A stretch of DNA of 43,967 nt, from positions 1 through 43,967 of IMG/VR virus record IMGVR_UViG_3300035698_001761. One strand, 5' to 3'. The stretch is from a virus. The notes beneath the pieces are model-generated. The model had not been told where the DNA came from, searched no databases, and saw only the letters and a program-made list of their open reading frames with translations. The translations under genes and the position numbers were made by a program. Positions 5,625 through 41,946 of the stretch are shown here, piece by piece; position 1 is the first letter of the stretch, and each line of letters begins with the position of its first letter.

Positions 5625-5647
5625 AACTAGATACAATTTGCAATTCA

Positions 5648-7385: not shown

Positions 7386-7387
7386 CC

Positions 7388-8570: not shown

Positions 8571-8595
8571 ACACATTTTTAACTAAGTTTATATC

Positions 8596-9023: not shown

Positions 9024-9027
9024 AAGG

Positions 9028-12826: not shown

Positions 12827-12830
12827 TAAT

Positions 12831-14624
12831 ATGGATGACTTATTTTTGATGATTCAATGGCTGGCACAGGTAGCAGCCAATAAGATTACGCACACCTACT
12901 ACGACAGGGTGACGCAGTTAGCTACCGATTACAGAGCCTACATAACAGGTGAGGGACTTGATGACATGATGCGTCAATTTGTGATGCGTGAGACAGACGA
13001 AGCCTTTGCACAGCGAAAACAGATAACTCAGCACATTATCCCCTCGGTGGTGGGTAATATCGTATCTGTTGAGAGGAAAGTACCTCGCTCCAATGGTAAG
13101 CGCAGAGTGCTGGGGTATAAGAACGATAACGAGTTTGAGAGAGCCGAAAAATTACAAGACATCTTAGATAGGTATTGGGGTAATATGTCCCTCGATGACT
13201 GGATGTCTACACGGTGGTTAGAGCTTAACGACACAGATCCTAACACCTTTACGGTTATAGAGTGGGACACCTTTGACGGAGATAAAACAAGAGCGTTGCC
13301 TTATCCTTATGAGTCTAATTCATTTGAGGCGGTGATGTTTGAATATACTAACAACATCCTTCAGTACTTAATAGACCACCAAGATGACAGGTACACTCTC
13401 TACGGGCTAAACCAGACCATCTCGGCAGTGAAGCTAACAGAAGACGAGGCAAGGCTTATATTAAGGATTTTCAGGAACGAAGAGGTAGGCATAGCTAAAG
13501 AGGTTGACGGAGTGTGGTATTTCAGGACTGACGATAAGACGGTTTATGAGGTTATAGTGTTTGACCCTCACGACCTGGGGTTTGTCCCGGCATTTAGAGC
13601 AGGTTATAAAAGGGACGAGGTAACAGACGGTAATACGTTTGTTAGTCCCTATAATGATTGTGTTCCATATCTCAAGAAGAGTATAAAGGCTAACTCTGAG
13701 TTAGACCTCACGATGGCTCTCCACGCCTTCCCTCAGAAGATTATCACGGCTCGTAAGTGTGCTGGAGAAGGGTGCAATGGAGGATATATATACAAAGACG
13801 GTGGGAGCATTCAGTGTGGTGTCTGCGGAGGGACGGGCTTCGCTGTTGCCACCTCAACGCAAGACATCATTTATGTACCTATCCCAAGAGGCAAAGAGGA
13901 GCAGCTTAGCCTTGAGAACCTAGTGCAGTATGTCACTCCAGAGGTGGCTCTGTTGGAGTTCCAAAGACTGTACATTGAGTACCTGACAAATGAGTGTATG
14001 CAGGCGGTGTTTAACTCCGAGATATTCACTCAGGATGATATAGCTACGACAGCCACAGAGAAACGTATAGACCTTGACAATATCTATGACACTCTTTATC
14101 CTTTGGCTATGATGTACGGAAGGGGCTGGGAGTTCCAGGTAAAGACGATAGCTGTAGTAACTAACTTACTTGAGAACTTGGTTGCCTCGCTGACGTTTAA
14201 CAAGGATTTCAAGTTCAAGAGCAAGGATGACTATATCGCAGACCGCAAGGGTGCTTTGGATGCAGGCGCACCAGATGCTATCTTGAGGAATATTGACGAT
14301 GACATAATGCGTATAGACACCTCGGATAATCCTCACGAGTTTGTCGTTTATAAGACGGTGCAGAGCTTCGATCCCTTTTCAGGGAAGAGCGATGAAGAGA
14401 TAGCTACGGCAATGGCAAGTAACACCGTTCCTTTCAGTGTGAAGGTTTTGTATAACAACTTAGGATGGATCTTCGATGCTATCTTCTTGGAACATCCCGA
14501 CTTCTTTGTGTGGAACAGGGACAAGCAGGCGAAGACAGTAAAAGAGGCAGTAGATAAGATCGTTGAAGAGCTAAAGACGGGCGATACACAAAAGGCATCA
14601 TTCGAGGATGGCGAACCAGAATAA
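12831..14624 (+). CDS. Portal protein with inserted zinc-finger-like motif
   Basis: 597 residues from ATG 12831, 4 bases after the terminase stop; a frame extension to 12804 has no good start. Position between the large terminase and the MuF-like gene, the length and the long helical pattern (YRAYITGEGLDDMMRQFVMRE at the start; EAVDKIVEELKTG at the end) mark it as the portal ring through which DNA enters. A CAGEGC ... CGVCGGTG block (about residues 308-334) looks like a DnaJ-type zinc knuckle and is unusual for portals. Confidence 0.85.
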   Translation: MDDLFLMIQWLAQVAANKITHTYYDRVTQLATDYRAYITGEGLDDMMRQFVMRETDEAFAQRKQITQHIIPSVVGNIVSVERKVPRSNGKRRVLGYKNDNEFERAEKLQDILDRYWGNMSLDDWMSTRWLELNDTDPNTFTVIEWDTFDGDKTRALPYPYESNSFEAVMFEYTNNILQYLIDHQDDRYTLYGLNQTISAVKLTEDEARLILRIFRNEEVGIAKEVDGVWYFRTDDKTVYEVIVFDPHDLGFVPAFRAGYKRDEVTDGNTFVSPYNDCVPYLKKSIKANSELDLTMALHAFPQKIITARKCAGEGCNGGYIYKDGGSIQCGVCGGTGFAVATSTQDIIYVPIPRGKEEQLSLENLVQYVTPEVALLEFQRLYIEYLTNECMQAVFNSEIFTQDDIATTATEKRIDLDNIYDTLYPLAMMYGRGWEFQVKTIAVVTNLLENLVASLTFNKDFKFKSKDDYIADRKGALDAGAPDAILRNIDDDIMRIDTSDNPHEFVVYKTVQSFDPFSGKSDEEIATAMASNTVPFSVKVLYNNLGWIFDAIFLEHPDFFVWNRDKQAKTVKEAVDKIVEELKTGDTQKASFEDGEPE

Positions 14625-15528
14625 GATAAAGGATATATGGAAGCGTAAGGACGACTATATAACCTCACGCCTTGACTGGCTTTCTCGTAAGGTAGATGCC
14701 TCACAGAACCAACTTCTAACGGCTATGGTAAGTGATTACTTCGGGCGGTTCTCTACCGATGACGCAGGGAACTTAAAGCCAACAGTAGGGAATATGAGGT
14801 TAGCGATGAAGATAGATAGGCTCTTTGATGCTCTCGACAGAAAGACCCTTCGTGCTGTCAATACTCGCTTTGGTGAAGACATGCTCAAACTCACTCCCAT
14901 CTCCGGGAAGTATTATTCTGCTATGGGTGAGCCTGTTGATATAGTGAAGTCAATAGGTGAGAAAGTAGGATTTATAGAGCAGGGCATAGGACTAAAAGAG
15001 GGGAAGATTATCGAAGGTGGTTATCTTGATACTATCACGAAGACTCCCGAAGTGCGCCAGAAGCTAAAAGACTACGTTACTACATCGGTGGCCAATAAGA
15101 AAGGCTTTGACGAGTACCTAAAAGGAATGAAAGAGTTAGTCATAGGTACGAAGATCCGTGACGGTGCTTTAGAGAAGTACTACAAGCAGTTTGCCTACGA
15201 TACGTTTAACGATACCGATGCAGCGATAAACAAACACTATGCAGACTCTTTAGGATTAACGTGGTTCGTTTATGCCGGGAGTATCATAGACACCTCAAGA
15301 GAGTTTTGTCGTAAACGTGCAGGGAAGACCTTTAACACCGAAGAGACGGAGAAGTGGAAGTGTGATCCTTACTTGATAGGGAAGCCCAAAGGTAAGCGGT
15401 GTGATGACTCGTATAACCCCTTGATTGAGCGAGGGAGATATAATTGTCGCCACAGCATCCGTTATATATCAGCAGACCTGGCCTGTCAGAATGGGCGTAA
15501 GGACGCATGCAAAGAAGCTGAACTATGA
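14608..15528 (+). CDS. MuF-like minor head protein
   Basis: 306 residues. The C-terminal third has the MuF signature: WFVYAGSIIDTSREFCRKRAGK, then NPLIERGRYNCRHSIRYIS. The N-terminal part is helical. MuF-type proteins sit inside the head near the portal and help morphogenesis. It overlaps the portal gene by 17 bases, and its stop overlaps the start of the first glycosyltransferase gene (ATGA at 15525), tying the head module to the sugar gene block. Confidence 0.85.
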   Translation: MANQNKIKDIWKRKDDYITSRLDWLSRKVDASQNQLLTAMVSDYFGRFSTDDAGNLKPTVGNMRLAMKIDRLFDALDRKTLRAVNTRFGEDMLKLTPISGKYYSAMGEPVDIVKSIGEKVGFIEQGIGLKEGKIIEGGYLDTITKTPEVRQKLKDYVTTSVANKKGFDEYLKGMKELVIGTKIRDGALEKYYKQFAYDTFNDTDAAINKHYADSLGLTWFVYAGSIIDTSREFCRKRAGKTFNTEETEKWKCDPYLIGKPKGKRCDDSYNPLIERGRYNCRHSIRYISADLACQNGRKDACKEAEL

Positions 15529-16130
15529 TCTCAATAATAATGCCCTCCTATCTCGGTCCTTACAAGAGTGCAGCTAAGAACAGGGAGCAGAAGATAGTAA
15601 GGGCTATACGGAGCGCACAGGCACAAACCTACGAAGACTGGGAACTTATTGTTATCTCCGATGGATGTGATAAGACAGTACAGATAGTACGCGAGATTCA
15701 CGACTCACGAATCAGATTATACAAGATTCCCAAGCAACCTACATGGAGTGGTGAGGTAAGAAATTCAGGAATAAGACTTGCAATGGGTAATTATTGTTTA
15801 TATTTGGATATTGATGACGCTTTTGCACCTGAGCATTTAGCTGAGATAGCTCCCCACTTGAAGGGTAAAGCATGGTACTGGATGGATGACTGGGTGTACA
15901 GGAAAGAGAGTAAGGACTTCAGACACAGGAAATGTGACATTAACAAAGCAGGGAAGTGTGGGACAAGTAACATTATTCATAAGCCAGCCTTTGCGCTGTG
16001 GCAATCTAAGGACAACTACGCCCACGACTGGAACTTTATTAACAACCTAAAAGGAGCAAGTAAGGACTATGGATATATTAAAGCAGGAAGGTATCTTGTC
16101 TGTCACGTACCCGGGAGGTGTGACATTTGA
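15525..16130 (+). CDS. Family 2 (GT-A) glycosyltransferase
   Basis: 201 residues. MISIIMPSYLGPYKSAAKNR with WELIVISDGCD is the nucleotide-sugar-binding half of a GT-A fold; YLDIDDAFAPEHL (about 91-103) holds the DxD metal site. No membrane segment, so it should be soluble. It is the first gene of the 12 kb sugar block and is translationally linked to the MuF gene. The donor and acceptor are unknown. Confidence 0.87.
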   Translation: MISIIMPSYLGPYKSAAKNREQKIVRAIRSAQAQTYEDWELIVISDGCDKTVQIVREIHDSRIRLYKIPKQPTWSGEVRNSGIRLAMGNYCLYLDIDDAFAPEHLAEIAPHLKGKAWYWMDDWVYRKESKDFRHRKCDINKAGKCGTSNIIHKPAFALWQSKDNYAHDWNFINNLKGASKDYGYIKAGRYLVCHVPGRCDI

Positions 16131-16186
16131 AGCACCTGACAGTATTTACGATGTTCAATTAATATACACTTTTAAACCTAATCAAG

Positions 16187-16306
16187 ATGGCGTGCGGCTG
16201 CAACAAGAAAAAGAAGACTAAACCAGCTACCACTAGAGGATCAACAAGACCCTCAGTGAGTAAGCATATACCTGCTTCGGTTAAACAGACAAGTGACAAG
16301 AAATGA
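16187..16306 (+). CDS. Tiny Cys- and Lys-rich protein
   Basis: 39 residues, starting MACGCNKKKKTKPATTRGST; overlaps the next gene by ATGA. Small basic proteins with this opening are common beside head genes of Bacteroidota phages, so it is probably an original head-module gene stranded inside the sugar block. Function unknown. The 56 bases before it hold an A/T-rich stretch with a weak promoter-like TACACTTTT. Confidence 0.65.
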   Translation: MACGCNKKKKTKPATTRGSTRPSVSKHIPASVKQTSDKK

Positions 16307-16968
16307 TCTCCATTATCACACGCTGTCGCAACCGCTTAGAATACACAGCACAAGTATTAGATGCCGTCAAGCGCAGAACTCATATACCTTATGAGCATAT
16401 AATAATAGACAACGCTTCAAGTGATGGTACAAAGGAGTGGTTTGCGTGGATGAACAAGAATAGTTGGTACACGAATGTCAAATATGTGCGCATGGATAGG
16501 AACTGTGGTGATTGGGGAGGCATGTTAGTAGGTGCTTCGATAGCTAAAGGGGATTTCATAGTACAGCTAGACAATGACGTTATCCCTTGTGATGGATGGC
16601 TCTCGGCTCTTCATTCGGGTTTGGTGGGTACTAAGTTTGATGTTGTAATGCTTCGCAGAGAGAACGTTTACGGCAAGTGGATATTAAAGCCCTTGAGTAG
16701 TCCTGTGAGAGTGGCAGGATTAGAGGTGGTGAAGGTAGAGCGACCTGTGGCATGTTACATGATAAGCAAAGAGAACTTTAGCAAGGTGCATGTCCCTGAA
16801 TCTAAGGGCAAGGTAAGCAAGTACGCTTTAGGCAAGCTCTTCAGGGTAGGCAAGATAATGAATAAGACCTGCATAGAGATAGAAGCCTTTAAAGATATGT
16901 TAGATAACAAGACAGACCAGAGGCACAAATACAGACCTGACAATTCCGAGATATGGGAGAAAGTATAA
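16303..16968 (+). CDS. Family 2 (GT-A) glycosyltransferase
   Basis: 221 residues. SIITRCRNRLEYTAQVLDAV and HIIIDNASSDGTKEWF (about residues 31-46) are the textbook opening of family 2 enzymes; DFIVQLDNDVIPCDGWL (about 85-101) contains the DxD-type metal motif. The C-terminal part should hold the acceptor site. Soluble. It overlaps the small gene before it and the next gene by 16 bases. Confidence 0.9.
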   Translation: MISIITRCRNRLEYTAQVLDAVKRRTHIPYEHIIIDNASSDGTKEWFAWMNKNSWYTNVKYVRMDRNCGDWGGMLVGASIAKGDFIVQLDNDVIPCDGWLSALHSGLVGTKFDVVMLRRENVYGKWILKPLSSPVRVAGLEVVKVERPVACYMISKENFSKVHVPESKGKVSKYALGKLFRVGKIMNKTCIEIEAFKDMLDNKTDQRHKYRPDNSEIWEKV

Positions 16969-17621
16969 TATTTACTTCCTATTTTAATAGACTCAGCGAC
17001 CCTCAGCGTGAGCGTAAGTGGGAGAGCAATGACTTCACTTGTATAAAGCCTCTCTACGATAGCGTAAAAGAGCTAGACCTGTCGATGATAATATTCTACG
17101 ATAGGCTAAGTGATAAGTTCATAAAGAAACATTCAACAGACAAGATTAGGTTCGTGAATTACAGACCCACAAGAATACCTACACACGCTCGGTTCTTTTG
17201 TTACAAAGAGCATCTTATGAAGAACCGCTACGACAAGGTATTGTGTTTGGATTGCAGCGACCTGGAGCTATACAAAGACCCATTCCCACTGATAGAGGAT
17301 AAGATAATCATAGGCTCTGAGGAGGGGTTGATAAAAGACAGCGTATGGATGTGCGATGTATTCCGCAAGGCATACGGTAAGACATTCTACGGCAATAGCA
17401 AGATGTTAAATTGTGGTATATTGGGAGGTAGATACGACCTCATCCTTCCTTTGTTGATATTCTTCGTGTGCGATGTAGCCGATAAGAAGGAGAATATTGA
17501 TATGGCTATCTTCAATAAGATAATATACGAGGACTTTGAATATAAGACGGGTTATCCCATACACACAGTCTTCGGGAAAGAGGAGGGCGTGGATTCGGGA
17601 TGTTACATACGGCACAAATGA
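16953..17621 (+). CDS. Glycosyltransferase-like protein (GT-A, GT8-like features)
   Basis: 222 residues. IIFTSYFNRLSDPQRERKW, KVLCLDCSDLELYKDPF (about 94-110, standing for the DxD region) and MLNCGILGG followed by NIDMAIFNKI are in the order seen in GT8-like hexosyltransferases. The metal-binding motif is CSDLE rather than a clean DxD. Probably a soluble sugar transferase; donor unknown. Confidence 0.72.
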   Translation: MGESIIFTSYFNRLSDPQRERKWESNDFTCIKPLYDSVKELDLSMIIFYDRLSDKFIKKHSTDKIRFVNYRPTRIPTHARFFCYKEHLMKNRYDKVLCLDCSDLELYKDPFPLIEDKIIIGSEEGLIKDSVWMCDVFRKAYGKTFYGNSKMLNCGILGGRYDLILPLLIFFVCDVADKKENIDMAIFNKIIYEDFEYKTGYPIHTVFGKEEGVDSGCYIRHK

Positions 17622-18280
17622 AAGATAGCATAGACCTAGTATTCGTAGCGAACAACCTCAAGGGTAGTCTATGGGAGATGACCCGAAACGCTGTTAGAAC
17701 GGCTGCAAAGCATGCTAGTATGCCTGTGGGGGATATTATCATTGTTGAGCAGTCCCGGTATGCTCGTGAGCAGCCACTAGGCAAGACTTTCTATTATGAC
17801 TTCGAGTTCAATTATAATAAATGTCTCAACTTAGGGATGTCAGTATGCAAGAGCAGGTACGTAGCTTTCTGTAATAACGACCTAATGTTTGAGGCTAATT
17901 GGGCGATTAATGCTGTGAAAGCTATGCAAAAGGGGGACTATCTATCTGCCAGTCCTACAAACAAACACATCTTTGCCGGGATAAGAGAGGGACATACAGT
18001 AGGTAAGATGGTTTTGGGGTGGTGCATAATCACCGACAGGGCGGTATTCGATAAGATAGGCAAGTTCGATGAGCCTGTAACATTCTGGTACTCTGATGAC
18101 GTATATGCAGACCAGCTAAAGAGAGCGGGGGTTAAGCATATCTTAGTAGGTAACTCAAGGGTAAGACATCTGGGTAATGGAAGTGTAACGCTCACGAAAA
18201 TAGCACCCAAGATAAGGGGTGAATATATGTCAAAGCAGAGGAAGGTCTTTGACGAATACATACTAAGCAAAAGTGTTTAA
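17618..18280 (+). CDS. Family 2-like glycosyltransferase
   Basis: 220 residues from the ATG that overlaps the previous stop (17618); a frame extension to 17600 is not needed. SIDLVFVANNLKGSLWEMT and DIIIVEQSRY open the domain; VAFCNNDLMFEANW (about 85-98) stands for the metal motif, and VTFWYSDDVYADQLKRAGVKH (about 165-185) is the late acidic pair of family 2 rhamnosyl-type enzymes. VRHLGNGS near the end adds the usual His. Confidence 0.85.
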   Translation: MKDSIDLVFVANNLKGSLWEMTRNAVRTAAKHASMPVGDIIIVEQSRYAREQPLGKTFYYDFEFNYNKCLNLGMSVCKSRYVAFCNNDLMFEANWAINAVKAMQKGDYLSASPTNKHIFAGIREGHTVGKMVLGWCIITDRAVFDKIGKFDEPVTFWYSDDVYADQLKRAGVKHILVGNSRVRHLGNGSVTLTKIAPKIRGEYMSKQRKVFDEYILSKSV

Positions 18281-18839
18281 GCATTACATACAGACCAAAT
18301 TCAATGTAGGTATCTACAAGCGCAAGGATGCAGAGGAGTGGATGAAGCACCGCATAGCCTTATTCGAGAGATATACGTATCCAAGTGTTATGAATCAGAC
18401 GGTACAAGATTTCACATGGCTGGTACGATTTGACAAGGACACACCGGAGGAAATATATAAAAAATATAAGATTACCCCCATCTTTTCGTCTTTTATTGAG
18501 TACATTAGGACTGTGAAATCAAAATGGATAATCACCTCGCGCCTCGATAGTGACGATTACTATGAGTCCAACTTCGTTAAGCGCGTACAGGCTGTCTTCG
18601 AAGAAAGGGAACAAGTGATAGATACGTTTGGGGTTAAGTACTACCATAAGACGGGCAAGGTTATTCGTGCGCCACAACTTCGGGGGAGTGCCTTTATTTC
18701 ACTCATAGAGAAGTGGGAGGGAGCAAAGACGGTGGGACAGTTAGCACACAGGGGGATGCCTGAGCGTTATCCATTCACCAGGATTCCAGAACAGCTATAC
18801 GGACAAGTTATTCACGGTAAGAATATTTTAAATAGTTAA
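18273..18839 (+). CDS. Putative rhamnosyltransferase-like GT-A enzyme
   Basis: 188 residues, GTG start inside the previous gene. TKFNVGIYKRKDAEEWMKHR, LFERYTYPSVMNQTVQDFTW and LVRFDKDTPEE match the order of the 'putative rhamnosyl transferase' family, and ITSRLDSDDYYESNFV (about 87-102) carries the DxDD metal site. It is shorter than usual family members (about 230-280), lacking much of the C-terminal part. Confidence 0.8.
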   Translation: MFKHYIQTKFNVGIYKRKDAEEWMKHRIALFERYTYPSVMNQTVQDFTWLVRFDKDTPEEIYKKYKITPIFSSFIEYIRTVKSKWIITSRLDSDDYYESNFVKRVQAVFEEREQVIDTFGVKYYHKTGKVIRAPQLRGSAFISLIEKWEGAKTVGQLAHRGMPERYPFTRIPEQLYGQVIHGKNILNS

Positions 18840-18841
18840 TT

Positions 18842-19189
18842 ATGTTAATTCACGTATTGAAGTCTAAGTTAAAGTGTGTAACCGTTACAAGTGCAGACGT
18901 AGAATATGAAGGAAGTATAACTTTAGATCCTCTCTTAATGCTAGAGGCTAACATCTTCTGGGGTGAGAGGGTAGAGGTGAACGCTAAGAACGGCACATCG
19001 CGGATAGTCACTTATGCCATACCTAAACTAGAGGGTGAAGGTACGGGATGTGTAGAGCTGAACGGTGGGGCTGCTAACTTCTTCAATAAGGGTGATAAGA
19101 TTCACATAAACTGCTTTGCGATAGTTGAGGAGAACGAGATAGAGCCTGCCATAGTTGTTAAGACTGACATAAACAACAAAGTGATATGA
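18842..19189 (+). CDS. panD: Aspartate 1-decarboxylase (PanD) homologue
   Basis: 115 residues, close to the usual 115-130. It aligns end to end with pyruvoyl-dependent aspartate decarboxylase: MLIHVLKSKLKCVTVTSADV, then YEGSIT with the self-cleavage pair Gly24-Ser25, Lys9, Arg54, Thr57 and Tyr58 at the positions known from E. coli, and the LNGGAA loop (Asn74). The enzyme would cut itself to form a pyruvoyl group and turn aspartate into beta-alanine. A panD gene in a phage, surrounded by glycosyltransferases, is surprising; beta-alanine could go to a glycan decoration or to coenzyme A. The next gene overlaps by ATGA. Confidence 0.93.
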   Translation: MLIHVLKSKLKCVTVTSADVEYEGSITLDPLLMLEANIFWGERVEVNAKNGTSRIVTYAIPKLEGEGTGCVELNGGAANFFNKGDKIHINCFAIVEENEIEPAIVVKTDINNKVI

Positions 19190-19431
19190 AATGTAAAGCA
19201 ATATTACAGGACGGAGATATGGAAGCTATCGAGAACGCTCGTAATTTAGGGCTTAAAGAGCCTGAATTATCAGAGGTTAAGATAGACTTCTATTTCGTTA
19301 TGGAGTCTGTTCATGCTTCATACATAAGTCCAGATGGTAATATAGTACTATTTCTTCCTTCCGGCCCATGGCTTTTGACTTTCGATAAGGAGCTTTGGGG
19401 ACAAATTAAGAGTTATCTAAACAAGGAATGA
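19186..19431 (+). CDS. Hypothetical protein next to PanD
   Basis: 81 residues, starting MKCKAILQDGDMEAIENARN; beta-rich C-terminal half (IVLFLPSGPWLLTFDKELWG). Not recognised. It overlaps both PanD and the next glycosyltransferase by 4 bases, so it is likely to work with one of them. Confidence 0.6.
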   Translation: MKCKAILQDGDMEAIENARNLGLKEPELSEVKIDFYFVMESVHASYISPDGNIVLFLPSGPWLLTFDKELWGQIKSYLNKE

Positions 19432-20129
19432 ACATATCCATCATAACAGCTACATGGGGAAGAGAAAGGTTATTTAGAGTCTTTCTAAATAGTATCAAAA
19501 GATACTATCAAGACTTCGGAATACAGACTATGATAGCTGGTAGTGAGGGCGTGAAGACTAGGGATATGTGTTTAGATGCCGGAGCTGGATATGTAGAAGT
19601 ACCCAATAGTCCTTTATCGGGGAAGTTCAATGCGGCTATTATGGCAGCTCACGTGAACTATAAGCCTGATGGGTTTATGATACTAGGCTCAGATGACTTT
19701 GTAAACGGTGCAGTCATTAAGCTATACCAATACGCTCTTAAAAACGGTGTTGATGTTGCCGGATTTAAAGATTGCTATTACTACAATGCTAAGATGGGGG
19801 AGGCTGTTTACTGGCCAGGATATACTGTTGCTCACAGAGTAGGTGAGTCGATAGGCATGGGAAGGTTACTTTCGTTAAAGGCTTTTCGTGCAGTCAAAGG
19901 CAGACCCTGGAGCGAGGCAAATAGAGGGCTAGATTGGTTAATGAACCAGAGGCTAAAGGGACATAAGACTTTAAAGCGTGCTACATATACGATGAAGGGA
20001 AGCAATTGCGTTATGGTAGACATCAAGGGCTTTGGGGGGATTTCAAGTCTAGGCTCTTATGACACCGAGCCTGTTGATATTAATGTGTTTGATACGATAC
20101 CTGAATTTGAAGATATACTGAAGTTATGA
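19428..20129 (+). CDS. GT-A type glycosyltransferase-like protein
   Basis: 233 residues. NISIITATWGRERLFRVFLNS opens a family 2-like nucleotide-binding domain, LSGKFNAAIMAAH and DGFMILGSDDFVNGAVI (about 83-99) give the central acidic metal site (SDD). WSEANRGLDWLMNQRLKGHK near 165-185 fits the acceptor half. The sequence is diverged from standard family 2. Overlaps neighbours by 4 bases on both sides. Confidence 0.75.
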   Translation: MNISIITATWGRERLFRVFLNSIKRYYQDFGIQTMIAGSEGVKTRDMCLDAGAGYVEVPNSPLSGKFNAAIMAAHVNYKPDGFMILGSDDFVNGAVIKLYQYALKNGVDVAGFKDCYYYNAKMGEAVYWPGYTVAHRVGESIGMGRLLSLKAFRAVKGRPWSEANRGLDWLMNQRLKGHKTLKRATYTMKGSNCVMVDIKGFGGISSLGSYDTEPVDINVFDTIPEFEDILKL

Positions 20130-21025
20130 AAATAACTATGCTCTCGGAGATTGACTATGCCGGATCAGGGCATAAGCTGTGTGAGGCAATAAACACTTAC
20201 ACTAACCATGATATTAAGCTCTACTCTGGGAAGTATTACAATCCTTTCGGTCATCCCGATAATTCAAAGTGGAACAAACAAGAGGCGCAAGCAAGGATAG
20301 ACACATCTGATGTAGTACACTTAAAAGGTGATTGGCCTCCTGCAAATGGGTACTTAGGACTGAAGATTATGCACAAGCCTATTGTAGTGACAGTCTCAGG
20401 GAGTCACTTCAGGAAGAAGGGTTGCGGAGGGTATGCCAAGTATAACCTGGATATGTACAGGCCTGCTGTGATACGTACAGCCTTCACTCCTGACTTATGC
20501 TACAAAGGTTATTCGGATATATGGACACCTCACCCGATAGACTGCGTAGAGAAGCCCGTAACATTCAAGAGACAAGAGCCGCCACTACTTATTCACATGC
20601 CTTCGAGAAGTGAAGTAAAAGGGACTGACTTTGTGTACGACATTTTCTCAGCACTAAAGAGCGAAATAGATGTAGAGACAGTAATAGCAGGTAAGATGTC
20701 ATTCGATACAGCTCTAAAGGTGCGCCAGAGGGCTACTATATTCTTCGACCAGTTCACGGTAGGCTTCTATGGCAACTCAGCAATAGAGGCTATGCAATAC
20801 GGAATACCCGTAGCTACGTGGATACGCCCAGAGGCTAGGCAAGAGGGTTGCCCTGTTATCACTACTGAAAGGAAAGTACAGTCGTGGGTAAAGCTAATTT
20901 TAGAAACCTTAGAGGACGATATGGAAGAGGCTAGTCTAGCTTCACGCCTTTGGTGCTTACAGAAACACAGCTATCAGGAGGTAGCTAAACAATGGGATAA
21001 TATTTATGACCTCGTTACAATATAA
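20126..21025 (+). CDS. GT-B glycosyltransferase (family 4-like)
   Basis: 299 residues. SEIDYAGSGHKLCEAINTYT at the start is the acceptor-side Gly-rich loop; SDVVHLKGDWPP and PIVVTVSGSHF follow; the donor-side domain has PPLLIHMPSRSEVKGTDFVY and GFYGNSAIEAMQYGIPVATW (about 214-233), the E-x7-E-type region of family 4. It is related in layout to the enzymes at 22069 and 24711, and like the first of those stands directly next to a PP-loop gene. Confidence 0.85.
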   Translation: MKITMLSEIDYAGSGHKLCEAINTYTNHDIKLYSGKYYNPFGHPDNSKWNKQEAQARIDTSDVVHLKGDWPPANGYLGLKIMHKPIVVTVSGSHFRKKGCGGYAKYNLDMYRPAVIRTAFTPDLCYKGYSDIWTPHPIDCVEKPVTFKRQEPPLLIHMPSRSEVKGTDFVYDIFSALKSEIDVETVIAGKMSFDTALKVRQRATIFFDQFTVGFYGNSAIEAMQYGIPVATWIRPEARQEGCPVITTERKVQSWVKLILETLEDDMEEASLASRLWCLQKHSYQEVAKQWDNIYDLVTI

Positions 21026-22100
21026 CTGGAAATACCGCAAGTATTCATGTCAGGGGAAGGTATCTGACAGCTTTGATGCCGTTGTTCCCAGTAGTGTAAG
21101 TGTGAATATCACTAAGGATATGTACCAGTCGATACATTATCCTGTTGCTTGTGGTGCGTGGAGTACACCATTTAAGCAAGTACACATTATGCCGTATAGC
21201 GATCCTCCTGATCTTGCTGCATATACCCCACCCAAGCTAAGGTCACATAGCATATTCGAGGAGCTTAAAAAGGCTATCTTCGAGGGGTGGATGCCTGATA
21301 AGATTCACGTCATAGGCTCTTCTTCAGGGTACGACTCCCGGCTTATAGCCAAAGCACTCCAGGAGCTAAGGCGCAAACACGGCAGCGAGTGGTTCGGAGA
21401 AACATGCTTTGTAGAATGTGGAGGCGAGGCGAAGGGATTTAAGCAGGTAATGGAGGCACTAGATTTCACCTCTAAGGATTATATTATATGGACTCCCGAA
21501 TACGATTTTGAATACTTCCAGGATATACATGAACGATTTAACGGGCTTTGTGCTTATCCTATGAATCAGTGGTATGACTATTATATAAAGAACTGGAATG
21601 AGGAAGACATACAATACATCTCAGGCTATGGTGGTAATGTCTCTGATGCTATAAGGGAAAAAGGGTATTTTCTCAAGCCTCTGAAGTCAAATCTAAATGC
21701 CAGGCAGCGTATAAGCCTGTTTTTCAACTGGAACTACAACTACCAACTAGCAGCTTTTAAAGAGCCTAAGTATTCCTTCCACCCATTTTGGACATGGCGA
21801 TACATAGATGCTATATATATGCTAGACCACAAAGAGCATAAGACGAGCATGTATTTATGTAAGCACTTTGTCCCCGAGTGTAAAGATATTAGAAGGATGA
21901 CTATCTTGGGCGATGTGACAGGGGCGGGATTCAGGACTGTGGGAGCTAAGGATCTTAAAAAGCTGTATGAACAGTTCAAAGGAACGAGATACGGGAAGAC
22001 GAGCAATGTTGTTCCGAATCCACAAATAGAATATAACCAATGGTGGTTAGAATATTGTATAGCAAGCTATGTCGAGAAAAATAACATTAACCTGCGTTGA
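21006..22100 (+). CDS. Asparagine-synthetase-like PP-loop enzyme, copy 1
   Basis: 364 residues. KIHVIGSSSGYDSRLIAKAL (about 99-118) is a PP-loop of the SGGxDS type used to adenylate a substrate with ATP, and ISGYGGNVSDAI (about 200-211) stands where asparagine synthetases have GEGADELF. There is no N-terminal Cys2 glutaminase domain. Relatives in sugar clusters make amides or attach amines to carboxylates, so it may modify a sugar acid or link an amino group; this is inference. It is paralogous to the protein at 22980. Confidence 0.75.
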   Translation: MTSLQYNWKYRKYSCQGKVSDSFDAVVPSSVSVNITKDMYQSIHYPVACGAWSTPFKQVHIMPYSDPPDLAAYTPPKLRSHSIFEELKKAIFEGWMPDKIHVIGSSSGYDSRLIAKALQELRRKHGSEWFGETCFVECGGEAKGFKQVMEALDFTSKDYIIWTPEYDFEYFQDIHERFNGLCAYPMNQWYDYYIKNWNEEDIQYISGYGGNVSDAIREKGYFLKPLKSNLNARQRISLFFNWNYNYQLAAFKEPKYSFHPFWTWRYIDAIYMLDHKEHKTSMYLCKHFVPECKDIRRMTILGDVTGAGFRTVGAKDLKKLYEQFKGTRYGKTSNVVPNPQIEYNQWWLEYCIASYVEKNNINLR

Positions 22101-22983
22101 TGCAGTAGGCGGTCATGCCTGTGGCCTAGCCATAGGACTACGTAAGTACGGTGATCTCACTGTGGTATGGAAGAATATTAATAAGCATAAGCTGGATTAT
22201 CTTAATCCTGATGCTAAGTTCGGGTTCAAACATCTACCCAAAGGAGGTGATGACCTTATCATAGTTAGCTGCATAACGTATGACTATCTAAAGATTCACT
22301 TCGGGGATGCCGTGTTCGCTCGTATACTAAGGGGATATAAGCGTGTTCATGTCGTAGTCACCGATGGACGGCTGGCAACAAACCCTGACTATTATAACAA
22401 GGTGTTTGATGGTTTCGATGTTCTCACTACGGCATGTAAGAGGCACTTCCGTGAGCCTTATCCGGTGAAGACGTACTACCAACCTTTCGACTTATCTTTA
22501 TTTAGTCTAAATAAAAATAAGGTATTAACTATCTCACACAGTCCCTTTGGACAGGGGAAGTTTAGAGAAAAGGGTACACAGCAGATAATAGAAATCACAA
22601 AAGGATATAACTTCGACCTCATTACAGGGGTGTCCTGGGACGAGTGTTTAAAAAGAAAGGCAAAAAGTCATATCTTTGTGGATCAGGTAGATCATTATGA
22701 CAGGAAGAAATTTAAGTTTAAGAATAAAGAATATGTATGGCCTGCTCTCGGAAAGTCTGGGATCGAAGCTCTGCACCTTGGGTGTCTTGTTATTACTTAT
22801 GGCAAAGGGTACGATACTGAAATACCTGCGCCTCCTGTGGCGTGGTGTAAGGGTAATTTTAAAGAGGTTTTAGATTACTATATTAAGAACGAAAAGGAAC
22901 GAGTAGAAATGGCAGAGGAGGGGCGTAAGTGGGCTTTGAAGTATGCGACTTATGACTATGCTGCACAAAATGTACTAAGATGA
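22069..22983 (+). CDS. GT-B glycosyltransferase-like protein, copy 1
   Basis: 304 residues. ITLTCVDAVGGHACGLAIGL opens the fold; QPFDLSLF, ISHSPFGQGKFREKGT and YNFDLITGVSWDECLKRKAK lead to WPALGKSGIEALHLGCLVIT (about 224-243), the donor-binding family 4-like segment. The same sequence steps recur in the protein at 24711, so the two are paralogues. The middle of the gene carries a perfect 9+9 palindrome (22497-22515). It overlaps the PP-loop gene by 32 bases. Confidence 0.82.
   Translation: MSRKITLTCVDAVGGHACGLAIGLRKYGDLTVVWKNINKHKLDYLNPDAKFGFKHLPKGGDDLIIVSCITYDYLKIHFGDAVFARILRGYKRVHVVVTDGRLATNPDYYNKVFDGFDVLTTACKRHFREPYPVKTYYQPFDLSLFSLNKNKVLTISHSPFGQGKFREKGTQQIIEITKGYNFDLITGVSWDECLKRKAKSHIFVDQVDHYDRKKFKFKNKEYVWPALGKSGIEALHLGCLVITYGKGYDTEIPAPPVAWCKGNFKEVLDYYIKNEKERVEMAEEGRKWALKYATYDYAAQNVLR
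22497..22515. promoter_or_regulatory. Perfect 19-bp palindrome inside a gene
   Basis: TTTATTTAGTCTAAATAAA, a 9+9 inverted repeat around T, is the longest match to the 1704 palindrome (on the other strand the centre is A). It lies inside coding sequence, so it may be a chance match or an extra regulator-binding site. Confidence 0.35.
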
Positions 22984-24089
22984 CTTTCGATAGGGATATA
23001 ATATTCATAGGTGACGGGCAGTCGAAGGACTTTTATGATGTGCTACCACAAACGCTCACCCTTCGTAAACCAGTGCCGGGGCATATCTTCAAGTCAGACA
23101 TGAAGTATCACCACGACACAATCTTTAAAGAGGTATCTTTTAACCGATATAAGCAATCAGATGAGACAGCCGCGTTTCTTAACACACCACATAAGAGAAT
23201 AAATAGCGTATGGGAGTTATACGAAGTGCTTAAAAGAGTTATCGAGAGACAGTGGGATACATCAAAGGTTCATGTTATAGGACACTCTTCAGGGTACGAT
23301 AGCCGGATTATATCTAATGCTATCAAAGAACTGGGAGAGAAGAACGGTAAGGAGTGGCTCGGTGAGGTGATATGTATAGAGGTGCTTGGTGAGGGTAAAC
23401 AGTTTAAGAGGATAATGGAAATCCAAGGACTCAAAGGAATAGTATACAAAGATGGATGCGAGAAGTCAGAGCAGCACCGCGAGAGCTTTGAGTTCAATAC
23501 TTTCTATAAGAAGTTTAACGGTGTTACATCGTTCCCGGTGAATCAGTGGTATGATGCTTATGCTCATTTAGAGAAAGATGGTGTTTTAGACAGCTCGAAG
23601 ACTCAGTGCTTTACAGGCTATGGGGCTAATGAGACTATGGAGATAGCACACAAGGGATATAAAGGAAGGGACTTCGCGTGGTATTTCCGGTGGCATCACT
23701 ACCTCCAGATACAGAACTTCAAACTATGGGGAGATAATTGGGTACATCCGTTCTGGGACTACGAGTTTTTAAATGCTCTGGCCGGGTTTAATACAGCGAA
23801 GAAATGGAAAAGTAGGATAGCAAGTGTCATGGCTGCTAAAGTAACGCCTCACCTTTTACACATACCCAATATGTTTACAGAGCTTGGAAACATGAAACCC
23901 GTAAGAACGCTCAATGATGACTTGTTGATATACGCCATAGATAGTTATAACAACTCATGGTATGGCAAGCATATAAGAGTACCCATGAAGAATGACTTTA
24001 TGAATTATCGTAGCTGGTGGGGACACTATTGTGCTGCCTCGGTGTGTGAATATCTTTTAAAGAAAGGACATAAAATAAATGGAGTTTGA
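22980..24089 (+). CDS. Asparagine-synthetase-like PP-loop enzyme, copy 2
   Basis: 369 residues. VHVIGHSSGYDSRIISNAIK (about 98-117) and CFTGYGANETMEIAHKGYKG (about 208-227) repeat the PP-loop and the later ATP-site motif of copy 1; MNQWYD and FPVNQWYDAY and a C-terminal WWxxYCxAS are also shared. It is thus a duplicated and diverged partner, perhaps acting on a second substrate or forming a heterodimer. Again there is no glutaminase domain. ATGA overlap with the GT-B gene before. Confidence 0.75.
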   Translation: MTFDRDIIFIGDGQSKDFYDVLPQTLTLRKPVPGHIFKSDMKYHHDTIFKEVSFNRYKQSDETAAFLNTPHKRINSVWELYEVLKRVIERQWDTSKVHVIGHSSGYDSRIISNAIKELGEKNGKEWLGEVICIEVLGEGKQFKRIMEIQGLKGIVYKDGCEKSEQHRESFEFNTFYKKFNGVTSFPVNQWYDAYAHLEKDGVLDSSKTQCFTGYGANETMEIAHKGYKGRDFAWYFRWHHYLQIQNFKLWGDNWVHPFWDYEFLNALAGFNTAKKWKSRIASVMAAKVTPHLLHIPNMFTELGNMKPVRTLNDDLLIYAIDSYNNSWYGKHIRVPMKNDFMNYRSWWGHYCAASVCEYLLKKGHKINGV

Positions 24090-24714
24090 TTATCAATGGA
24101 AGAATCTACCGTCTGAATTTATCGAGTATAATGAGTCGAGGGTAAGTGAGTTTATGAAATTTACAGGACTGCCTGAAGATTTCTTGAAAGATAAGGATGT
24201 GCTAGATGCTGGCTGTGGCAATGGGAGATATACGTATGCTATGCAAGAGCTGGGAGCAAGGGTGACGAGCATAGACATAAGCACTGAAGCCGTAGAGGCG
24301 TGTAAGAAGATAAATCCCAATACACGAAAGATGAGTATACTAGACATAGAGGGTGAGTACGACTTTATCCTGTCGTGGGGTGTCCTGCACCACATGGAAG
24401 ATCCTCATAAGGGATTTACTAAACTTATCTCCGTATTAAAGGAGGGCGGTACTATACATCTTATGTTATATAACAGAAACACTCAGAACGTATACATAGA
24501 TTTACGCAAAGAGTTTAAGTCCAAGACCCAGGAAGAAAAAGTAGCGATGTGCAAGGGACTAGGTAAGAATGTTCACGGATGGTACGATGCACTTAACCCT
24601 GAGTACAACTTTAGCTATGAGCCTAGCGATATTGTTAAATGGTATAAGGATGCGAAGATTAGTGATATTCATATTGCCGATACAGCAAGTATAAATATAA
24701 ACGGAGTAAAATGA
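24079..24714 (+). CDS. Class I SAM-dependent methyltransferase
   Basis: 211 residues. VLDAGCGNGRYTYAMQELGA (about 41-60) is motif I, VTSIDISTEAVEACKK holds the acidic ribose-binding residue, and YDFILSWGVLHHMEDPHKGF (about 94-113) motif II/III of the Methyltransf_11/25 type. It most likely methylates a sugar or a small acceptor in the glycan, given its place between PP-loop and GT-B genes. Overlaps neighbours by 11 and 4 bases. Confidence 0.9.
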   Translation: MEFDYQWKNLPSEFIEYNESRVSEFMKFTGLPEDFLKDKDVLDAGCGNGRYTYAMQELGARVTSIDISTEAVEACKKINPNTRKMSILDIEGEYDFILSWGVLHHMEDPHKGFTKLISVLKEGGTIHLMLYNRNTQNVYIDLRKEFKSKTQEEKVAMCKGLGKNVHGWYDALNPEYNFSYEPSDIVKWYKDAKISDIHIADTASININGVK

Positions 24715-25625
24715 AGGTAACACTTGTATGTGTTGATGCTGCCGGAGGACATGCTTGCGGTCTTAGCTTGGGGTTACGCAAACATTGTGAACTAACAACG
24801 GTGTGGATGAATCACAACCTTCATGGGCTGGATCATATAGAGCCTAAAGCATTATTCGGGTTTGAGAACTTACCACCACAAGGAGATGTTTTAATAATCG
24901 TCAGCGTAGTAACGATATACTGTCTTGAGAGGTATATGGGCATTAAAAAATACAACAAGTTTTTGAGTGGGTATAAAGAAATAAAGGCAATCATTACAGA
25001 TGGGAAGATAATAGAAGATCCCGTCAGGGCCAATTCCAAGATGATAAATATGGATGTGTTTGCCCATCTATGCAAGATAGCCTTTCGTGGCGATCTACCC
25101 ACAAAGGAATATTATCAGCCTTTTGATTTATCGCACGTAGAGATAAAGAAAAATGATAAGCTGACCATTGCACATTCGCCATTTGTAGCTATGAAAAGAG
25201 TAGAGAAAGGGACGGACGAAATAGAAAAAGGGATAGAGAAATATGGTGATAGTATAATCTTCGACTTGATTACAGGAGTGACATGGGAGGAGTGTCTTAA
25301 AAGGAAGGCTCGCTCACATATGTTCATCGACCAGTTGTATAACCCGACAGACACATACGGAATAAGTGTAGACCACCACAGCATAGGTAAGAGTGGCATA
25401 GAAGCTATGCTCTTAGAGTCGCTGGTTTTCACTCGTGGTGAATATACGGGGAGAGAGATCCCTGCGCCCCCGGTGGTGTGGATAGGTCGCAATAACCTCA
25501 CGGATCTTATAGATTATTATATAGAGCATCCCGAAGAAAGGGACGAAAAGATAAAAGAACAAAAGACATGGGCTTTAAAGTATACCACTTACGATTTCGC
25601 TGCACGTAACGTACTTGGACTATGA
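24711..25625 (+). CDS. GT-B glycosyltransferase-like protein, copy 2
   Basis: 304 residues, the same length as its paralogue at 22069. VTLVCVDAAGGHACGLSLGL, FDLITGVTWEECLKRKARSH, GKSGIEAMLLESLVFTRGEY and REIPAPPVVW follow the same order. It lacks the insertion around the fluctuating middle (DQLYNPTDTYG against DQVDHYDRKKF). The pair suggests duplication of a PP-loop plus GT-B unit, with the methyltransferase gene placed between the second pair. Confidence 0.82.
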   Translation: MKVTLVCVDAAGGHACGLSLGLRKHCELTTVWMNHNLHGLDHIEPKALFGFENLPPQGDVLIIVSVVTIYCLERYMGIKKYNKFLSGYKEIKAIITDGKIIEDPVRANSKMINMDVFAHLCKIAFRGDLPTKEYYQPFDLSHVEIKKNDKLTIAHSPFVAMKRVEKGTDEIEKGIEKYGDSIIFDLITGVTWEECLKRKARSHMFIDQLYNPTDTYGISVDHHSIGKSGIEAMLLESLVFTRGEYTGREIPAPPVVWIGRNNLTDLIDYYIEHPEERDEKIKEQKTWALKYTTYDFAARNVLGL

Positions 25626-26263
25626 TAGGAGTAATAACATACGATGTACCACATAAGAAGACGCAGGACGTTCTCTTCAGGCTCAAAGCACATGGATATA
25701 AGGACGTAGAATGTGTAGCCTTCCCGTTTGTTAAGAGGAAGCAATTTATCCCACTAGTGAGACATCGCATGGTGAATGAATTGAACATCCCTCCGCGTAA
25801 CTTCTGTGAAGCTATGGGATATGGATATACCGAGGAGGTAGATTTTGATAAGTACGATAAGATACTAATAGGGGGATGTAATATCCTTCCCGAAGAAATG
25901 ATAAGAGGGCATGAGATAATAAATGCACATCCAGGCTACTTGCCTTATGTCAGGGGGCTAGACTCTCTCAAGTGGGCTATCTTTGAGGGACTACCCATAG
26001 GGGTGACATCACATACCATAGACAAAGAGATTGACATGGGGTTATTAATAGAGCAGCAATTTATTACGATAGACTATTTTGATACCATACACAGTCTGGG
26101 ATATAAGACTTATCAGCTAGAATTAGATTTGTTGATTAGAGCCATAACGAATACCAACAGGGAAAAGATGAAATCAGGCAACCAGCCTAAGCGCAGGATG
26201 CCACATAGATTAGAGGTAAAGATGTTAGCTAAACTAGAATTATTAAAGACTAAAAGATTATGA
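25622..26263 (+). CDS. Formyltransferase-family protein
   Basis: 213 residues. INAHPGYLPYVRGLDSLKWA (about 99-118) with GVTSHTIDKEIDMGLLIEQQ (about 127-146) is the formyltransferase core: the catalytic Asn and His are in NAHPG and the Asp in the HTIDKEIDMG segment. Sugar N-formyltransferases of this class use formyl-tetrahydrofolate to formylate amino sugars in surface glycans. The formyl-donor loop at the N-terminus is not obvious, so the exact acyl donor is uncertain. Confidence 0.83.
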   Translation: MIGVITYDVPHKKTQDVLFRLKAHGYKDVECVAFPFVKRKQFIPLVRHRMVNELNIPPRNFCEAMGYGYTEEVDFDKYDKILIGGCNILPEEMIRGHEIINAHPGYLPYVRGLDSLKWAIFEGLPIGVTSHTIDKEIDMGLLIEQQFITIDYFDTIHSLGYKTYQLELDLLIRAITNTNREKMKSGNQPKRRMPHRLEVKMLAKLELLKTKRL

Positions 26264-27159
26264 AAGCAATAGTAACAGGAGGGGCAGGATTTATAGGAAG
26301 TCACATAGCACGAAGGCTCTTAAAAGACGGGCATAAGGTTATAATACTCGATGACTTATCGGCAGGTAATATATCAAATATACCCCACAAGGCCACATTT
26401 AGACAGGTAGACATATCTAACTGGGACGAGCTGGGAACGGTGGAGGATGCCTTTGAGGGGTGCGATGTCATCTTTCATAACGCAGCGAGTAAGAAGAATA
26501 TATGCCTGAGAGATCCTGTGAGAGACTTACAAGTAAATGGAGGGGGTACGCTCATGCTCTTACAGCTTGCCAAAAAACACGGAGTAAAGAAGTTCGTTCA
26601 CGCCTCTACGGGTTCAGTCTACGGGAATGTGATTAAGGGGCAGATAAACGAAGAGACACGCCTGCTCCCGGTGAGTTATTACGGTATATCTAAGCTGGCA
26701 GGGGAGAGCTACGTGAGGCACTTCAGGTATGCTCACAATATGAACATCACTATCTTGAGGTATTTCCATGTCTACGGAGCAGGACAAGAGAATGATCCCG
26801 ACCTTGGGGGAGTGGTGGCTATCTTTAAGAACCAAATAGAACACCGAAGGGGGATAACTATTCATGGCGACGGTGAGCAAGAGAGGGTTTTCACTCACGT
26901 TGATGACATCGTGGAGGCTAACATGAAGGTATGGAAAGAGTACCGTACGTATGGGCAGGTTTACAATTGCGCCTCCTCGGAGCAGACAACAATAGGACAA
27001 TTAGCAGATACGTTGATGAATGAATACGGTGATGTAGAGATAGAATATACCGACCCTTTGGAGGGTGACATATTCTGGTTTGATGTAGACGCTGGTAAGA
27101 TGCAAGAGTTAGGAGTTAATTTCAGAGGATTTAAAGAAGGTATAAAAACATTATTATGA
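26260..27159 (+). CDS. NAD-dependent nucleotide-sugar epimerase/dehydratase (SDR)
   Basis: 299 residues. TGGAGFIGSHIARRLL (6-21) is the NAD-binding GxxGxxG; DDLSAGNISNI follows; HASTGSVYG and YYGISKLAGE (about 145-154) give the Ser/Tyr/Lys triad; VFTHVDDIVEANMKVW and YNCASSEQTTIGQLAD complete an extended-SDR UDP-sugar 4-epimerase-like fold. It would make the activated sugar used by the transferases encoded upstream. The substrate cannot be read from the sequence. Confidence 0.92.
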   Translation: MKAIVTGGAGFIGSHIARRLLKDGHKVIILDDLSAGNISNIPHKATFRQVDISNWDELGTVEDAFEGCDVIFHNAASKKNICLRDPVRDLQVNGGGTLMLLQLAKKHGVKKFVHASTGSVYGNVIKGQINEETRLLPVSYYGISKLAGESYVRHFRYAHNMNITILRYFHVYGAGQENDPDLGGVVAIFKNQIEHRRGITIHGDGEQERVFTHVDDIVEANMKVWKEYRTYGQVYNCASSEQTTIGQLADTLMNEYGDVEIEYTDPLEGDIFWFDVDAGKMQELGVNFRGFKEGIKTLL

Positions 27160-27755
27160 AACTAATCTTAGCAGCAGGCGAACAGACACGCTGGAATCAC
27201 GGGGATATTGTAGGGCTACCATCTATTAAGCAGTTAGTAGACATAGACGGTGAGCCTTTAATAACCAAGATTCAGGGACAGTTTGAGGACTCGATAGTAG
27301 TAACTAAAGACAAGCAGATAAAGAAGCACTCTAGGAAGTGGTTTGAGCCTGAGCAGTCGGAGGTAACTCTAGCAACGCTATTCTCTACTCGTGACCTGTG
27401 GGGTGACTGGACAACAATCCTCTTAGGTGATACTCTCTATGGAAGGAACACACGCAAGATGATAAAAAAGCAGGAAGAGCCTATAATGTTTTATGGAGAT
27501 CAGGGTGAGATATACGCTATAAAGTTTCACCTCAGCGTGAGTCACCTGGTGATTTACGCTATTAACCAGGTCGTAAGCTCACCAAACTTTCATAAGCGTT
27601 ATGGTAAGCTATGGAACTTATATCGCCAGATGAACGGCTTTGACTTCCGCGAACACCTCATAGGTGAGCATTTCACCTTCGTTAAAGATACTAGAGATTT
27701 TGATAACAAGGAACAATACTTAAAATATGCCAAAAATAAAACCGTACGAAGGTAA
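27156..27755 (+). CDS. Sugar nucleotidyltransferase-like protein
   Basis: 199 residues. KLILAAGEQTRWN (2-14) followed by GLPSIKQLVDIDGEPLI is the LAAGxGTR...PKxLxxI signature of NTP transferases that activate sugar phosphates; TILLGDTLYG (about 88-97) is the acidic metal site. It is shorter than usual enzymes (about 230-290), so it may be a trimmed version. It ends the sugar block; its last 29 bases overlap the next gene. Confidence 0.8.
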   Translation: MKLILAAGEQTRWNHGDIVGLPSIKQLVDIDGEPLITKIQGQFEDSIVVTKDKQIKKHSRKWFEPEQSEVTLATLFSTRDLWGDWTTILLGDTLYGRNTRKMIKKQEEPIMFYGDQGEIYAIKFHLSVSHLVIYAINQVVSSPNFHKRYGKLWNLYRQMNGFDFREHLIGEHFTFVKDTRDFDNKEQYLKYAKNKTVRR

Positions 27756-27981
27756 GATACCAGCGTTCTACCGTAGGAGCGCACTAGACTTGATGTTATT
27801 CAGTCATGTTACTGCTCTGTGTGAGCGTGAGAAGATGTCCCTTGAGGATGCCATAGATAACTTCTTTGAGGTTGACGGTATCTCGGATGATGACTTCCCG
27901 ATAGAGAGTGCGCTAACTACTTATAACAGGGTTCGCAATAATTTTATATGGACAAAATTGCAAGAAAAAGATTTCAATTAA
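27727..27981 (+). CDS. Hypothetical protein
   Basis: 84 residues, starting MPKIKPYEGKIPAFYRRSAL; helical, acidic second half. No family recognised. It overlaps the nucleotidyltransferase-like gene by 29 bases and is the last gene before the promoter and palindrome at 27990, so it marks the end of the sugar operon and may belong functionally to either side. Confidence 0.55.
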   Translation: MPKIKPYEGKIPAFYRRSALDLMLFSHVTALCEREKMSLEDAIDNFFEVDGISDDDFPIESALTTYNRVRNNFIWTKLQEKDFN

Positions 27982-28424: not shown

Positions 28425-28728
28425 AAGCAAGAAATACGGTAACATTCAGTTCGTAGATATTGAGACATGGAACAACTTTAAGCGGCTGGGCAAGGATAGA
28501 TCCTTTAAGATTATTGATGACGGTGACTTACAAGAGACTGTCATACCCTCCCCTGAGAGCATAACGGACTTCAGGCAACCGGACATAGTTCCTGAGCCTA
28601 TCGTTATCGAGAAGATAGAAGCTGACATGCCTCGTGAAGAGATAAAGGCTAAGTTAGATGAATTAGGCATAGAGTATAACACTCGTGCAAATACAGATAG
28701 TTTAATTAAATTACTTAATAAAGAATAA
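28411..28728 (+). CDS. Head-module protein with C-terminal HeH domain
   Basis: 105 residues. The beta-type N-terminus (YGNIQFVDIETWNNFKRLGK) is followed by an acidic linker and a clear HeH/LEM-like end (PREEIKAKLDELGIEYNTRA with DSLIKLLNK). Similar small proteins sit upstream of capsid genes in other phages. It overlaps the genes on both sides (14 and 1 bases). Confidence 0.68.
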   Translation: MPTIESKKYGNIQFVDIETWNNFKRLGKDRSFKIIDDGDLQETVIPSPESITDFRQPDIVPEPIVIEKIEADMPREEIKAKLDELGIEYNTRANTDSLIKLLNKE

Positions 28729-30703: not shown

Positions 30704-30732
30704 GAGGGTGTAATATTATGCACCCTCTTTTT
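30704..30732 (+). terminator. Rho-independent terminator after the capsid gene
   Basis: GAGGGTG (30704-30710) and CACCCTC (30721-30727) form a seven-base stem around a ten-base loop, followed by five T. It would stop capsid transcripts, though it also lies directly behind the promoter-like boxes. Confidence 0.78.
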
Positions 30733-41935: not shown

Positions 41936-41946
41936 AATAAATTGAT

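Follow-up and report, generated by a model that had tools for sequence, protein, structure and literature searches.

What is a run of sugar-handling genes about 12 kb long doing inside the head operon of a small tailed phage that is known solely through environmental DNA? The question is raised by IMG/VR record IMGVR_UViG_3300035698_001761, whose whole length of 43,967 bases is the window analyzed here; the record is classed as linear and may be a fragment. The block in question (15525..27755) lies between a gene for a MuF-like minor head protein, which ends at 15528, and a small gene, g18, which begins at 27727, ahead of the scaffold and capsid genes. We propose, with a probability of about one in two, that it encodes a membrane-free glycosylation system that is produced along with the late head genes and acts in the cytoplasm on a virion (head) protein. 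This reading is favored because of the position of the block, the coupling of its reading frames, the co-divergence of its core with the head genes, and precedent in other viruses.

Gene content of the block

The block contains 17 open reading frames (ORFs) of at least 60 amino acids, all on the + strand, and one ORF of 39 amino acids, which bears out the 18 unidirectional genes described in a first-pass annotation made from the sequence alone. Frames overlap at 17 of the 19 junctions from the MuF-like gene through g18, and the overlap is exactly four bases at 10 of them; the earlier wording, that most genes overlap by four bases, was thus right about overlap and slightly generous about its length. 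Both the MuF-like gene and g18 are translationally coupled to the block through overlapping frames, and the GC content of the block shows no contrast with that of the flanking head genes. Independent contigs show this arrangement again, so it is not due to chance. The rest of the first-pass inventory (about nine glycosyltransferases, PanD, a methyltransferase, a formyltransferase, an epimerase, two PP-loop enzymes, and no protein with multiple membrane segments) also held, the block proteins having at most one hydrophobic segment each; the nucleotidyltransferase-like protein stood on its conserved motifs and failed to find a family match.

Nine of the products are likely glycosyltransferases (GTs). 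The GT2 enzymes g1 (15525..16130) and g2 (16303..16968) match PF00535 above the Pfam cut-off (E values of 2.9e-19 and 8.2e-18, respectively), and residues D95, D97, and D98 of g1 are invariant across 11 sequences. Both also have weak PHROGs matches to GtrB-like families, and a homologue of g1 is present, unannotated, in a 735 kb phage record. The glycosyltransferases g3 (16953..17621) and g4 (17600..18280) were recognized through PHROG 1579 (4.7e-17) and PHROG 22332 (1.9e-24), and g5 (18273..18839), a putative rhamnosyltransferase, through PF11316 (1.4e-16, above the Pfam cut-off). The product of g8 (19428..20129), which has no family match, is a probable GT-A enzyme, with a GT-A-like sequence and a GSDD motif that is invariant in a six-sequence alignment. 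Weak matches to PF00534 (8.6e-4) and PF13524 (0.0012) point to GT-B enzymes for g9 (20126..21025) and g11 (22069..22983), and the model of g14 (24711..25625) has a predicted GT-B fold (pLDDT 86, pTM 0.83). The last two are paralogues (53% identical), and g9 is 51% identical to its counterpart in an unrelated phage (locus L003). PDB sequence searches with the family profiles of g14 and g9 gave no match, and the g8 profile gave weak, irrelevant matches only.

The block also encodes enzymes that could prepare or modify sugars. A short-chain dehydrogenase/reductase (SDR) of the nucleotide-sugar epimerase/dehydratase type (g16, 26260..27159; PF01370, 4.9e-56; PHROG 540, 1.5e-65), an S-adenosylmethionine-dependent methyltransferase (g13, 24079..24714; PF13489, 2.9e-18), and a sugar N-formyltransferase-like protein with the NxH...D residues (g15, 25622..26263; PF00551, 3.3e-11) all match above the Pfam cut-offs. 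The top NCBIfam match of g15 is dTDP-4-amino-4,6-dideoxyglucose formyltransferase, under the cut-off of that model. The nucleotidyltransferase-like g17 (27156..27755) carries the motifs LILxAGxQTRW, KQL, and LLGD, conserved in three phages, and had no match in Pfam, PHROGs, NCBIfam, or a PDB sequence search. The aspartate 1-decarboxylase PanD (g6, 18842..19189) matches PF02261 (1e-28; 100 bits against a cut-off of 25), with the Y-E-G-S self-processing site at residues 22–25, and scores 70.6 bits with TIGR00223 of NCBIfam, below the cut-off of 106. PanD is rare among annotated phages and is found there mostly in records resembling bacterial fragments; it is also annotated in Gordonia phage Jace, and a phage PanD is therefore not unique. 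Next to it lies a small gene, g7 (19186..19431), which is retained in the closest relative (L085), where it adjoins the SDR gene.

Two PP-loop enzymes, A (g10, 21006..22100) and B (g12, 22980..24089), are paralogues with about 30–33% identity, and g10 is 55% identical to its counterpart in the closest relative (L002). Their assignment is upheld by the motif S-[SG]-G-x-D-[ST]-R, which reads S-S-G-Y-D-S-R in the window and in which S103, G105, and D107 are invariant in five sequences, and by a model of g12 that is itself of low confidence (pLDDT 55, pTM 0.56). The top PDB matches of this model, at TM-scores of 0.34–0.44, are beta-lactam synthetase and asparagine synthetase (best E value, 7e-5). 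The motif and the predicted core fold would thus liken g12 and its paralogue g10 to the asparagine/beta-lactam synthetase superfamily, whose members make amide bonds via an adenylate. Asparagine synthetase B differs in having an N-terminal glutaminase with Cys2; g10 and g12 lack this residue and start with MTS and MTF. The relationship was invisible to Pfam, NCBIfam, and PDB sequence searches, and comparison of the PP-loop model with a viral structure library showed, with weak scores, that asparagine-synthase-like phage proteins exist. A recent tandem duplication of the two genes is unlikely, since the identity of g12 to its homologue in L003 (about 40%) exceeds that to g10 (about 30%). PanD accompanies the A-type PP-loop protein in both phages that have the latter (the window and L002), and none was seen beside the other PP-loop types in L003 and L061; with two phages against two, this pairing is only suggestive.

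At the g1–g2 junction we found an ORF for a 39-residue peptide with a CxC motif (16187..16306, + strand; MACGCNKKKK...) that overlaps g2 by four bases and is short enough that gene callers are likely to miss it. ORFs of 35–41 residues with this motif occupy the junction in the four closest phages (the window, L085, L061, and L006), and the pattern M[AG]CxCxKK has no other occurrence in 1.13 Mb of compared loci. Other small CxC ORFs adjoin GT genes in L013, L017, and L030, and a CxC-pattern search of the head regions of loci without GTs revealed no comparable small protein. Its role may be that of an acceptor, of a helper that binds metal, or of a small protein of the head.

Core and shell in related phages

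Comparison of gene order showed that three of the GT genes, g1, g2, and g4, form a core near the portal/MuF–scaffold junction in seven relatives, and this position is kept at identities of the terminase large subunit (TerL) from 72% down to 47%. The core is surrounded by a variable shell, which one relative retains in a shorter version and in which other relatives have exchanged enzymes. In the closest contig, IMGVR_UViG_3300005613_000454 (our loci L002, L004, L005, and L085; TerL 72% and capsid 75% identical), a block stands at the same place, in a MuF-to-scaffold interval of 9.4 kb, without g3, g5, g12, g13, g14, and g15. L061 (TerL 70%) has g1, g2, g3, g4, g8, and g17 together with a methyltransferase and a PP-loop protein of another type (SGGYDSR), and L020 and L022 have g1, g2, g4, and g8 plus a protein that we read as ATP-grasp-like (no Pfam match). 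In L025, L026, L030, and L068 the core GT genes lie between portal and MuF, not after MuF, and the g2 counterparts of this branch are distant (about 21% identity in L025 and L030).

The pairwise identities of each gene were compared with those of TerL by a Mantel test. The correlation was 0.72 for g1, 0.80 for g2, and 0.90 for g4, and 0.80, 0.72, and 0.76 for portal, MuF, and capsid, respectively. On the TerL tree, the phages with GTs after MuF were clustered, requiring 2 changes where shuffling gave a mean of 7.3. Because the identities track TerL and the carriers cluster on its tree, we regard the core as long settled in the head region and the shell as a set of exchangeable modules. The unrelated phage L003, which has no match to the TerL of the window, carries g8, g9, a g11-type GT, a g12-type PP-loop gene, a methyltransferase, and an SDR in a row before its own terminase and portal, and this second cassette beside head genes lends further support to a role in the virion. 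An annotated phage collection held no close relatives of the capsid protein, the PP-loop proteins, or g14. No relatives of the PP-loop proteins or TerL were found in bacterial genomes, and these searches therefore gave no host or prophage context.

Several further features of these loci were observed. The ATP-grasp-like protein lies where other phages have a PP-loop enzyme (L020 8151–8993; L022 10971–11708) and is possibly an alternative solution to amide formation. In L085, a 91-residue protein with two hydrophobic stretches (12519–12794) stands between the g11-type GT and the SDR and has no counterpart in the window. Ser/Thr-rich, fiber-like proteins lie between portal and g1 in L025 (4307–5623), L026 (6560–7720), and L030 (13219–13905); they gave one weak Mtd_N match and may be head fibers and candidate acceptors in that branch. 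Upstream of terL, L030 has another sugar cluster (4725–9075), with a GT2 homologue, a methyltransferase, a radical-SAM-like protein, and an SDR. The terminase ORF of L003 (13856–17197; 1113 residues) is interrupted mid-way by an apparent intein.

The genes that flank the block in the window are also on the + strand. TerL (11384..12826; tblastn match to annotated phage terminases), portal (12804..14624; PHROG 7376, 1.5e-17), and the tape measure (35650) were recognized by similarity, the last two through PHROGs. No Pfam or PHROGs model names the MuF-like protein (14608..15528; four-base overlap with g1), the scaffold-like protein (28728..29627), or the putative major capsid protein (29634..30656); these labels rest on position and on gene-order conservation in dozens of relatives. 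The small head-region protein g18 (27727..27981) is present in relatives without GTs as well. The capsid-like protein is cysteine-rich (13 in 340 residues), a trait common to relatives without GTs, and a GIY-YIG homing-endonuclease-like gene lies directly 3' of its gene (30718–31458); at the equivalent site L085 has only a short remnant-like match (29 residues, 62%). Three adjacent small tail-region proteins with similar cysteine-containing starts (41648–42455) look like tandem paralogues, and the early region encodes a protein (8118–8570) whose DNA-binding domain is that of the DnaA C terminus. A-rich upstream regions without a clear Shine-Dalgarno sequence, and a best TerL match to a Bacteroides phage, suggest a host in the Bacteroidota.

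Acceptor and competing explanations

If the block glycosylates the virion, g16 and g17 would adjust or activate host-derived nucleotide sugars, as their families and motifs suggest. A core GT would then place the first sugar on a virion protein; this is probably g1, because it is the most widespread of the core GTs and directly follows MuF. The enzymes g2 and g4, followed by the lineage-specific GTs, would extend the glycan sugar by sugar, and methyl (g13) and formyl (g15) groups may be added as decoration. The PP-loop amide-synthetase-like proteins may contribute an amine, for which beta-alanine made by PanD is a candidate.

Several observations weigh against this proposal. No recognized GT lies in the portal-scaffold interval of 21 of the 26 relatives that show both genes (MuF-to-scaffold mostly 0.6–1.4 kb, at most 4.1 kb), and virions of this lineage therefore assemble without the block. 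Two of these 21, L032 and L053, have a g1 homologue upstream of terL, and the position in the head operon is thus not absolute. The Mantel comparison speaks only for a shared history of the core GTs and TerL, not for a shared function, and late expression by itself would suit modification of the host surface equally well. The acceptor would be a virion protein, and nothing singles out the capsid protein for this role. In an alignment of 25 capsid sequences from phages with and without GTs, we found that no insertion, Ser/Thr enrichment, or Asn sequon accompanies the GTs, and the many cysteines do not set GT carriers apart; the capsid was accordingly dropped as a sequence-recognizable acceptor, a result that lowers only the capsid-specific claim. 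Also rejected was an extension at the C terminus encoded by the gene at 33406; it is present in L085 and absent from the GT-carrying L061, and hence does not track the GTs.

We next consider machinery that other targets would call for. The record contains no GtrA (PF04138), initiating transferase (PF02397), or flippase (PF01943), the last two as the first-pass annotation had stated, and no thymidylate-synthase-family hydroxymethylase (PF00303) or tyrosine integrase; these searches had positive controls in named genomes, and the record may be incomplete. The hydrophobic-segment scan found no multi-membrane polymerase in the block, and neither g1 nor g2 contains a hydrophobic segment, hence no membrane-anchored GtrB. 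These absences lower the probability of a GtrABC system, of a complete Wzx/Wzy system, and of DNA modification. GtrABC seroconversion cassettes resemble the block in their phage-encoded GT2 enzymes, to which the GtrB-like matches of g1 and g2 correspond, and differ from it in the GtrA, membrane-anchored GtrB, and integrase that this record lacks.

Modification of a host surface glycan is the main rival and, in our judgment, the less likely of the two. Here lipid A-core, or an oligosaccharide on a host lipid, would be lengthened or given new decorations by the cytosolic GTs and then exported by the host's own machinery; the proposed benefit is either that debris does not trap the progeny or that the cell becomes resistant to other phages. 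Enzymes that act from the cytosol on lipid A-core or on lipid-linked sugars are frequently peripheral and are able to draw on the carrier and flippase of the host, and for this reason the missing membrane proteins are compatible with a host target. O-antigen and capsule loci typically combine peripheral GTs with an SDR, an N-formyltransferase, a methyltransferase, and a nucleotidyltransferase, and the weak GtrB-like matches and the capsid alignment fit such a target as well. Pelagimyophages likewise carry several GTs in a structural region, for which O-chain modification was proposed (PMC7029224); those GTs stand beside tail-fiber genes, whereas the block separates portal/MuF from scaffold/capsid and has a core that co-diverges with the head genes. 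That constancy at the head junction, the markers missing from the record, and the expected late expression of the operon, when a change of the surface should help least, all argue against a host target.

The other explanations are weaker. The glycan may be built on the small CxC peptide, which is then packaged or released. The peptide is conserved at one spot and only in phages with the GT block, its window copy is Ser/Thr-rich and basic, its look-alikes in L013, L017, and L030 also adjoin GT genes, and the profile of g1 gives a weak match to SunS, which S-glycosylates a small peptide (E value, 3.6e-4), although many generic GT2 enzymes score better. It is absent from some phages with the core GTs, there is no room for it in L025, L026, and L068, its Ser/Thr content varies, and small, basic proteins with a CxC motif may bind metal or belong to the head without any link to glycosylation, all of which make such an acceptor improbable. 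Still less probable is a line in which the membrane-free system uses beta-alanine from PanD and the paralogous PP-loop enzymes to build an amide-bearing glycan on this peptide for display on the head. That the block is accidental cargo, morons stacked at an insertion hotspot with no joint function, would agree with the strong variability of the outer shell and with the GT-free relatives; the recurrence of the g1-g2-g4 order in seven relatives with head-gene-like divergence, the intact catalytic motifs, and the coupled frames render it improbable too. Glycosylation of phage DNA by a hypermodification system is the least likely of all. Viruses are known to encode GTs that attach diverse glycans to DNA (Pyle et al. 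2024, in the passage of PMC12619734 that cites it). The GTs of the block, however, sit among late head genes, not replication genes, and the hydroxymethylase is missing from the record, incomplete as this may be. To our knowledge, the formyltransferase and PanD have no place in DNA hypermodification.

Precedents and implications

Taken together, these data confirm the observation of a soluble glycan-assembly block in the head operon and partly support its interpretation. The first-pass annotation had placed the glycan on virion proteins, most probably the capsid protein, or on another cytosolic acceptor; the soluble enzyme set and the co-diverging core agree with the former, and the capsid received no support at the sequence level. 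The gene order, which it had suggested comparing among phages with and without the block, recurs in some relatives as described above. Points beyond that annotation are the organization in two layers, the two pairs of paralogues (PP-loop and GT), the kinship of the PP-loop proteins with amide synthetases, and the CxC peptide.

Virion glycosylation in mycobacteriophages reportedly involves one or a few GTs, whereas the present block, known from its genes alone, combines nine GTs with sugar-modifying and amide-synthetase-like enzymes inside a head operon. GTs of Che8, Corndog, and Myrna glycosylate the capsid and tail tube, according to the passage of PMC12363180 that cites Freeman et al. 2023; as described there, these cases share with our proposal a tailed phage, GTs of its own, a virion-protein acceptor, and no need for membrane machinery. 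In chloroviruses, the capsid protein is glycosylated in the cytoplasm by viral enzymes (PMC5408694), and the block resembles this system in being multi-enzyme, mostly virus-encoded, and outside the secretory pathway. Chlorovirus glycans have a common core, as those made by the block would. Chloroviruses are giant algal viruses, whereas the block forms a single uninterrupted operon within a phage record of 44 kb.

If the virion is indeed the target, the system would be far more elaborate than the known few-enzyme mycobacteriophage examples and would parallel, in phages, the glycosylation of the chlorovirus capsid. Exchange of the outer enzymes among related phages would then alter the glycan coat of the virion while leaving its core unchanged. 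The core-plus-shell layout, with relatives that have or lack the block, makes the targets of phage GTs testable by comparison, and it provides a likely glycan context for anonymous families, namely the PP-loop proteins and the GT-B proteins g9 and g11/g14, which recur in the cassette of an unrelated phage.

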